Origin: a virus
IMG/VR virus record: IMGVR_UViG_3300048672_000354
Location: 1 to 44,068 of that record
Length of the DNA: 44,068 bases
Direction: 5' to 3' (one strand)
The notes under the pieces are model-generated. The model was given only the letters and a program-made list of their open reading frames with translations. It searched no databases and was not told the DNA's origin. Numbering within the stretch: the first letter of the stretch is position 1; each line of letters begins with the position of its first letter. Both the position numbers and the translations under genes were made by a program. Positions 41,443 to 42,686 of the stretch are shown here, one piece after another.

Positions 41443-41595
41443 TTAGATTATTTGGGCTGCATAATCAATATTATAATCAAAACATATTATAAATGTTATT
41501 TCATCATACATACCAAAGGTTGACATTGAGAAAGCATACCCAGTATTAAAACTAAACCAATCTGCATCTTGATAATCATTGCCAAAGTCATCCAT
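41443..41595 (-). CDS. Hypothetical 50-aa acidic protein
   Basis: ATG 41595 with GGAG eight bases upstream; the longer frame to 41655 would run through a 13-bp hairpin and is rejected. Asp- and aromatic-rich (DDFGNDYQDADWFSFNTGYAF), with no basic cluster. An acidic, DNA-mimic-like composition is noted without further support. Confidence 0.6.
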   Translation of the reverse strand: MDDFGNDYQDADWFSFNTGYAFSMSTFGMYDEITFIICFDYNIDYAAQII

Positions 41596-41653: not shown

Positions 41654-41673
41654 AACCCGGACGATGCCGGGTT
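41654..41673 (-). terminator. GC-rich hairpin after the Cys-repeat gene
   Basis: AACCCGG (41654-41660) and CCGGGTT (41667-41673) form a 7-bp stem with a 6-nt loop, 21 nt past the stop of the Cys-repeat gene on the leftward transcript. The following TTGTCTCACTTT is only partly U-rich, so a partial terminator. Confidence 0.55.
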
Positions 41674-41693: not shown

Positions 41694-42248
41694 TTATTGG
41701 CCCTCCCAGAAACTTTCTGGAATCCTATCAATGACTCCCCGAATAAGATCACCGTAACAAATCAAAAATTCTTTAGATTTATTACCATCTAGACTGCTTA
41801 ATTTATCCCAAGTGAAGGATTTCCAATCATCAATGCAGTAATCTTTACAACCTATTTTCATTGTTTTATTTTTTCTAATTGTGATAATGTAATGATATAG
41901 GTTTAGTTGGATTGGTTGAGAGCCACAATTTATACAATTTGTACAATTTGTGCAAAATGTACATTTTGTACAATATCTACAATCTGTACATTTTGTACAA
42001 TATCTACAAATTGTACAATCTGTACATTTTATACATTTTGTACAATCTGTACAAAATGTACAATTTGTGCAAAATCTACAATTTGTACAATTTGTACAAT
42101 TTGTACAATCTGTACAATCTGTGCAATCTGTGCAATCTGTGCAAAATGTACAAAATGCTTCATCGCAATCAACCAAAAATACTATGTTGTGGTGAGAATT
42201 TCCGGTTTCAGGATTTATCCATTGAATTTGTAAGTCTTGAAAAAACAT
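41694..42248 (-). CDS. Cys-triplet repeat protein (184 aa), function unknown
   Basis: Residues 33-108 carry 26 Cys at an exact spacing of three, as CTD, CTN, CTF, CTK, CRY and CIK triplets. The N-terminal 32 residues (FFQDLQIQWINPETG...) and the C-terminal 75 (about 110-184, from GSQPIQLN to FWEGQ) are ordinary globular-looking segments. No known family is recognised with confidence. The Cys register would place all thiols on one side of an extended or three-residue-per-turn helix, suiting metal binding, redox storage or a beta solenoid. An internal ATG (MKIGCKDY) starts the C-terminal part. SD is a weak GTGAGA. The coding repeat is a 9-nt DNA repeat. Confidence 0.8.
   Translation of the reverse strand: MFFQDLQIQWINPETGNSHHNIVFLVDCDEAFCTFCTDCTDCTDCTDCTNCTNCTNCRFCTNCTFCTDCTKCIKCTDCTICRYCTKCTDCRYCTKCTFCTNCTNCINCGSQPIQLNLYHYIITIRKNKTMKIGCKDYCIDDWKSFTWDKLSSLDGNKSKEFLICYGDLIRGVIDRIPESFWEGQ
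41930..42163 (-). repeat. 9-bp tandem repeat encoding the Cys triplets
   Basis: About 26 imperfect copies of a nonamer (on the plus strand TGTACAATT, TGTACAATC, TGTACATTT and variants). Around fifteen contain the palindrome TGTACA. All three plus-strand frames are also open here, which is a property of the repeat and not evidence of genes. Variation among copies is mostly at the third residue of each triplet, while the Cys codon is always kept, which argues for selection on the protein. Slippage would change the length in steps of three residues without a frameshift. Confidence 0.95.
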
Positions 42249-42289: not shown

Positions 42290-42439
42290 TCAGTATTGGG
42301 GAATCCAAGGTACTGAGAGAGTATCAATAAATTTCCAATTGATATATTCCTGAGATTCATCGAATCCTAGATAACCTATTGGGGAGCAGGTGAAATAGAA
42401 TTGAAGAATTGAATCAATGATGATGGCAATTTCGGGCAT
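42290..42439 (-). CDS. Hypothetical 49-aa protein
   Basis: Short frame from ATG 42439 to TGA 42292-42290, preceded by GAAAGTGAGATTCT, the same leader as the Cys-repeat gene downstream (CTCAGAAAGTGAGATT). Hydrophobic/aromatic (IAIIIDSILQFYFTC, WKFIDTLSVPWIP). It fills the gap between the Cys-repeat and zinc-ribbon genes on the same transcript. Unrecognised. Confidence 0.55.
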   Translation of the reverse strand: MPEIAIIIDSILQFYFTCSPIGYLGFDESQEYINWKFIDTLSVPWIPQY

Positions 42440-42488: not shown

Positions 42489-42686
42489 TTATATCGGCTT
42501 AGGATTAAATGTGGCATCCTTAAGCCAGTCAGGATCAACACAAGTTTTACACAGTACCATTTGTTTATGGTTTGGAGTAATTACGTACCAAACTAAATTA
42601 AATTGTTTCTCTTCTAAACAATCAGTACAAGTATAGTTTGCTCCATCATTTTTAACTGGACGATAGATTTTATCTTTGTTTAACAT
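42489..42686 (-). CDS. Small zinc-ribbon-like protein (65 aa)
   Basis: Clear SD (AAGGA, six bases before ATG). Two CxxC pairs, CTDC (about 20-23) and CKTC (about 46-49), separated by 22 residues with aromatic strands, make a zinc ribbon. It is the first gene after the promoter at 42740-42769. A small nucleic-acid- or RNA-polymerase-binding protein is plausible. The first CTDC recalls the triplets of the Cys-repeat gene two genes downstream, but relatedness is not shown. Confidence 0.75.
   Translation of the reverse strand: MLNKDKIYRPVKNDGANYTCTDCLEEKQFNLVWYVITPNHKQMVLCKTCVDPDWLKDATFNPKPI

Follow-up and report, generated by a model that had tools for sequence, protein, structure and literature searches.

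What kind of protein places a cysteine at every third residue without a single break, and is this pattern kept for the sake of the protein or is it the trace of an expanding DNA repeat? The question is raised by a minus-strand gene of a 44,068-nt virus record (IMG/VR record IMGVR_UViG_3300048672_000354, positions 1 to 44,068; this whole stretch is called the window in the following), whose features are collected in Table 1. A sequence-only reading of this DNA had described 26 cysteines at exact three-residue spacing, built from a 9-nt repeat, and both statements hold: in the translated ORF the series runs unbroken through residues 33, 36, ..., 108, with further cysteines outside the array at 28, 134, 138, and 164, and Tandem Repeats Finder reports a period of 9 nt with 25.4 copies at 41925-42153 (score 234). 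The cysteines of the array are written by 21 TGT and 5 TGC codons. The variation of the two other positions is also as had been described; counted over the 25 true units, the second position is T (20), R (3), or I (2), and the third is D (7), N (7), F (4), K (4), Y (2), or I (1), unit 26 (CGS) forming the edge of the array.

Table 1. Coordinates of the array gene, its modules, and neighboring elements in the window.
Feature	Position	Strand	Basis or remark
Cys-triplet array protein, 184 aa	41694..42248	-	ATG 42248-42246, stop 41696-41694; phrog_15341, E 1.3e-12
N-terminal cap, residues 1-32	42153..42248	-	W-I-N-P-E-T-G-N; alignment with L009, L064, and 29 relatives; modeled strands
Cys-triplet array, residues 33-108	41925..42152	-	26 Cys; 9-nt unit TGT-ACA-AAT
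C-terminal region, residues 109-184, with GC-x-x-x-x-I-x-x-W domain	41697..41924	-	phrog_31567, hhalign, model
Leader CAGAAAGTGAGATT preceding the array-gene start codon	42252..42265	-	a similar copy stands before the ORF that begins at 42439
Perfect 7-bp GC-rich inverted repeat AACCCGG-ACGATG-CCGGGTT	41654..41673	.	about 20 nt past the array-gene stop codon
Zinc-ribbon-like protein, 65 aa, CTDC...CKTC	42489..42686	-	two ORFs upstream of the array gene

The array gene lies in an early region

The ATG at 42248 is supported as the translation start by the leader preceding it and by the copies of this leader at other minus-strand starts. A shorter form, GAGATTC, precedes the starts at 41595, 41431, and 39043, which suggests that the GAGATT(C) element is a common translation or regulatory leader; its position further suggests that the real starts of two small ORFs are those at 41595 and 41431, not the longer TTG or ATG options. 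The inverted repeat downstream of the gene was not reported by the terminator scan. The zinc-ribbon-like CTDC protein noted in the sequence-only reading is indeed encoded on the same strand, and a transcript shared by the two genes is plausible.

The window comes from a tailed phage: its plus strand carries the genes for terminase, portal, head, and tail, and its minus strand encodes a primase/helicase, a DNA polymerase, an exonuclease, and a Dda-like helicase. The array gene lies among these replication genes and further small genes of the minus strand, a cluster whose content marks it as an early region. The IMG/VR phage that is nearest in synteny (L286, with a helicase 64% identical) has no such gene, which is thus accessory. 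PADLOC matched no defense model. In the relatives, the neighbors are small hypothetical genes, Erf, YqaJ/RecE exonuclease, SSB, and repressors, with each recurrent neighbor family accounting for only 2-3 of 78 neighbors; the pentapeptide genes of P22-like phages occupy a comparable early place, where kil, arf, and erf adjoin them and ral or sieB is not far away. From these two settings we infer an early accessory protein.

The array belongs to a widespread phage family

Profile and pattern searches make the array a member of a widespread, unstudied phage family, no isolated oddity. The match to phrog_15341 covers residues 26-110, i.e. the end of a short N-terminal cap and the CxxCxx array following it; PHROGs labels this family as of unknown function, and its members include CPt10_1641 and CP21_192. 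Arrays of this kind are absent from Pfam and NCBIfam, and the protein itself has no match in either (Pfam at E 1). The sequence-only reading was thus right that no characterized family matches, but it had missed phrog_15341 as well as a link of the C-terminal region to pentapeptide and YdcK proteins, described below.

More than 100 viral contigs carry arrays of the form C-[S/T]-[D/G/N/R/Y], as do a few bacterial genomes and isolated Campylobacter phages. Pattern and profile scans of IMG/VR return dozens of proteins that combine the cap WxxDxNGN...A..SL.NC with 6-53 C-x-x units and a variable C-terminal region; the cap motif was required in order to exclude spurious CxxC runs from antisense or simple-repeat DNA (for example CSGCSG in L025, L039, and L041). 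Bacterial arrays were found at 5 loci in GTDB contigs and, within one phylum, in 2 of 398 genomes, seed included; because of this rarity we regard the family as mainly one of phages. Array genes can stand in tandem, two to five per phage: five with differing sequences at L193:7184-9156, three to four in L034, and two each in L129 and L215.

Over 1978 units from 82 members, Ser accounts for 73% of the second residues of the triplet, and 96% of the third residues belong to the set D, G, R, N, Y, S, and H, nearly all from NRY codons; 304 different 9-mers write the C-x-x pattern. The protein of the window has nearly no close relatives, the one locus being L009. Of the full family cap, WxxDxNGN...FGS...A..L..SL.NC, only W10, G16-N17, and L25-V-D-C are recognizable, and the cap profile A2 finds no match in the window; judged by the alignment, the cap is probably a divergent, shortened form of the family cap WxxDxNGN...L-x-N-C. 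The proteins of Campylobacter Firehammerviruses in phrog_15341 (E 1e-70 or better) resemble the protein of the window in having a cap, with DxNNNKW, followed by a long CxxCxx array, but they lack its C-terminal GC..I..W domain. Cysteine at every third residue over 75-150 residues, recurring across unrelated phages, is not among the repeat classes that we found described; the literature searched, which covered few subscription papers, contains no description of a C-x-x class.

One C-terminal domain follows three types of repeat

The C-terminus of the protein matches phrog_31567 with an E-value of 9e-4, and hhalign aligns it, at 96.9% probability, with a phage GC-x-x-H-x-x-x-x-W alignment built without it. 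It thus carries the GCxxHxxxxW domain (phrog_31567 / phrog_1086), whose hallmarks are a β-hairpin, the GC motif, a helix with a conserved W, and a further helix, and which in the structure model has the topology β-β-β-α-α. A scan for this domain (in fuller form HMQIGCQxHxxxxWxxF) yields 42 loci; most of these have genuine pentapeptide repeats (PF00805) before the domain, and two, L222 and L262, have Cys triplets. Among the phage pentapeptide proteins, Caulobacter phage BL94 gp20, Rheinheimera Barba gp43, Salmonella ST64Tp22, and Oslo gp46 all have the same GCQxHxxxxWxxF domain after their rod-like repeats, which follow a five-residue pattern A-(D/N)-L-x-x, unlike the three-residue C-x-x. At two others of these loci (L250:1955-2686 and L257:1934-2653) it is YdcK repeats (PF18836, E 7e-28 and 8e-21) that precede the domain, with an xVxGxA-like pattern and, in contrast to the array, hardly any cysteine. 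The profile comparisons thus establish that one C-terminal domain stands after three repeat types, that is, an exchange of repeat modules.

Pentapeptide repeats are β-solenoids (PMC8145042). The strongest argument that the Cys array is a solenoid as well is that it fills the slot otherwise held by pentapeptide or YdcK β-solenoids. It is not itself a pentapeptide array in disguise, as the protein has a three-residue repeat, no Pfam hit, and no stretch of at least 8 contiguous A(D/N)LXX units; the composition of its triplet positions resembles that of pentapeptide positions i+1 and i+2 moderately (cosine 0.54 and 0.72), which we do not take as proof.

A second candidate for such an exchange, the WHTC..THCRAGW domain, was rejected, since the best 80 of 422 loci were essentially all Cys arrays; exchange is therefore claimed for the GC..W domain only. 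The WHTC..THCRAGW domain is also found, at 61% identity, in the isolated Flavobacterium phage FL-1 (KY421186, 26959-27241; L268).

The structure model is a parallel solenoid

With the protein and 29 relatives as input, AlphaFold yields a model of moderate to low confidence (mean pLDDT 62, pTM 0.41) in which the array folds as a parallel solenoid. A β-bridge forms at each third residue (34, 37, 40, ...), that is, at the residue after the cysteine; pLDDT is about 71-73 over array residues 41-70 and about 69-82 in the C-terminal domain, and the cap contributes β-strands at residues 8-11, 18-22, and 24-26. For a second member, L192, the array was returned without a confident fold. The sequence-only reading had expected all thiols to line up along an extended three-fold structure, which the model does not bear out; a novel solenoid, another of its suggestions, fares best among the three hypotheses it had offered.

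Foldseek found no significant match to the model in the PDB. When its top PDB chains were realigned, the β-helical antifreeze protein of Tenebrio molitor (1ezg) came first, with Z 6.0 and, over 69 residues, an rmsd of 3.5; the chains next in rank were mostly other solenoids. The score may reflect a common arrangement, and 1ezg is likewise rich in Cys and Thr. Homology is not claimed: the antifreeze protein is extracellular and disulfide bonded, with a 12-residue repeat TCTxSxxCxxAx, the insect antifreeze family (PF02420) is not matched by the protein in Pfam at E 1, and a phmmer match to 1ezg (E 6e-4) was attributed to Cys/Thr composition. Among viral models, the significant Foldseek matches are a protein of Campylobacter virus IBB35 (E 4e-4), a phage of a type that itself carries Cys arrays, and, with E 8e-5, a protein from a giant virus that bears the name TNFR-Cys. 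Autocorrelation of the array sequences showed no coil period above 3 residues. If the Tenebrio protein, whose coil has 12 residues, is taken as the analog, a coil of about 12 residues, or four triplets, would be the likeliest.

Replacements in the array point to core packing

Among 119 distinct arrays with 3156 cysteines, the in-register replacements are 16 Ser, 6 Leu, and 1 Tyr, in 21 contexts, some of which share descent and thus stand for fewer independent events; His, Asp, Glu, and Met never occur in their place. Leu is two base changes away from TGY, so that these replacements look tolerated within a packed core, and the restriction to Ser, Leu, and Tyr points to core packing, not to metal ligation.

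This bears directly on the idea, also raised by the sequence-only reading, that the protein binds metal or buffers thiols, its dense cysteines chelating Zn, Cu, or Fe-S clusters or serving as a redox sink during infection. There is something to be said for it in the 26-54 cysteines of the arrays, in their regular CxxCxx spacing, in which CxxC pairs have the classic spacing of ligands, and in the CxxC zinc-ribbon-like protein encoded close by. We nonetheless consider it unlikely, because neither ferredoxin nor metallothionein models nor any other recognized cluster- or metal-binding domain matches in Pfam and NCBIfam, because the replacements are of the wrong kind, and because the same architecture exists with pentapeptide or YdcK repeats that are nearly free of cysteine, so that the C-terminal domain, whatever its task, has no need of thiols.

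Model, module exchange, and replacement pattern together lead us to a solenoid fold with inward cysteines, and it is rather probable that the array is a narrow parallel β-solenoid.

A proposed cysteine-cored rod as an early phage protein

The reading that we favor, by a little over even chances, is that of an early accessory phage protein, a modular, narrow β-solenoid with a cysteine core that would engage a host target early in infection by means of a rigid rod. It would consist of three modules: the N-terminal cap, the narrow parallel solenoid of C-x-x triplets, and the GC-x-x-x-x-I-x-x-W domain. The cysteine sidechains would face inward and form a core of small residues; within each triplet, residue 2 would pair between coils in β-bridges, and residue 3 (D, N, G, K, Y, and others) would lie at solvent-facing turns. 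The rod would be equivalent in role to the pentapeptide and YdcK solenoids that precede the same C-terminal domain in other phages, offering a rigid surface of tunable length to a host macromolecule early in infection; rod and C-terminal domain would probably bind this candidate partner together. More tentatively, it is possible, if rather less likely than the preceding, that the arrays form a new class of exceptionally thin β-solenoid, with about 12 residues and four inward cysteines per coil, which substitutes in phages for the pentapeptide and YdcK rods in engaging a host target, and whose internal column of thiols may have a metal or redox function in addition.

If the array is a minimal β-solenoid whose core consists of Cys alone, it adds to the known solenoid folds, provides a scaffold whose length changes in steps of three residues, and gives structural meaning to hundreds of phage genes annotated as hypothetical. 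With repeats of three types standing ahead of the same C-terminal domain, the function of the module can be tested directly, as the nearly Cys-free versions are natural controls.

The same rod could in principle be stapled by disulfides. The core of the Tenebrio antifreeze β-helix, the closest structural neighbor among the chains compared, is made of disulfides, and the cysteines of the array could pair in the same way in an oxidizing location or in the virion. This is improbable, since no signal peptide is apparent by eye in the protein or in the relatives read, the gene is in that half of the genome which is early and non-structural, cysteine numbers are odd as well as even, and the bacterial cytoplasm is reducing.

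A specific version of the solenoid rod, to which we give an equally small chance, is a DNA mimic or gyrase-binding rod in the manner of MfpA and Qnr, both of them pentapeptide proteins. DNA mimicry is described for the pentapeptide inhibitors of gyrase (PMC8145042, PMC10886550), and the protein shares its architecture with phage pentapeptide proteins and its modeled fold with solenoids, among which MfpA and QnrB appear low in the structural list; the net charge of the array, 0 here and with a family median of -0.09 per unit, is so close to zero that the array is not clearly DNA-like, which argues against simple mimicry.

Selection holds the cysteine register

Across the 25 units of the window, changes at codon positions 1 and 2 affect 0 of 50 sites in Cys codons, as against 23 of 100 sites in the other codons (Fisher p = 3e-5). 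The DNA provides an internal control, as the unit TGTACA is near-palindromic and the plus strand therefore likewise reads C-x-x triplets: in the plus-strand ORF at 41907-42233 the cysteine register is interrupted by Ser and Tyr, because the complementary ACA codon varies, with 5 of 50 sites changed against 0 of 50 (p = 0.028).

Isolated phages with array genes include the Campylobacter Firehammerviruses CPt10, CP21, CP20, CP220, IBB35, and F379, among others, in which they are annotated as hypothetical or 'cysteine rich'; one annotation also mentions weak insect-antifreeze hits together with a signature of TNFR. Each of these genomes has two array loci (L266, L267, L269-L285). At the helicase-phosphoesterase locus, 7 distinct alleles, all of one length, retain every one of the 26 cysteines, even though synonymous variation affects 13 of their codons, while 11 of 56 other array codons show amino-acid changes (Fisher p = 0.011); under simple neutral models, the probability that all 13 changes are synonymous is about 5e-8 or less. 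The cysteines of these relatives are thus under purifying selection, which, together with the codon contrast in the window, upholds the earlier claim of selection on the cysteines.

The sequence-only reading had proposed to compare repeat number in related phages, and had named homologues that keep the repeat but acquire stops as evidence against its view. Such evidence is found in part, as the two loci differ on both counts. At the portal-ligase locus (locus A), intact alleles differ in their longest Cys run (27 to 54), and 3 of 9 alleles have stops or a frameshift, so that repeat number is labile and one locus dispensable; the helicase-phosphoesterase locus is intact in all alleles seen and, apart from a recombinant in phage WX1, constant at 142 aa with 26 cysteines. 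Wherever the array protein is retained in the Campylobacter phages, its cysteine register is retained as well. That the array is low-complexity sequence, expanded neutrally from a 9-nt repeat and without function at the level of the protein, is the least probable reading of all, as the range of lengths and the broken alleles at locus A and the absence of the gene from the nearest syntenic phage are outweighed by a register that persists under synonymous drift, by the one encoded pattern behind the many 9-mers of the family, and by conserved cap and C-terminal domains on both sides of the array. The exception in WX1 is a chimera at the helicase-phosphoesterase locus, which suggests that arrays recombine.
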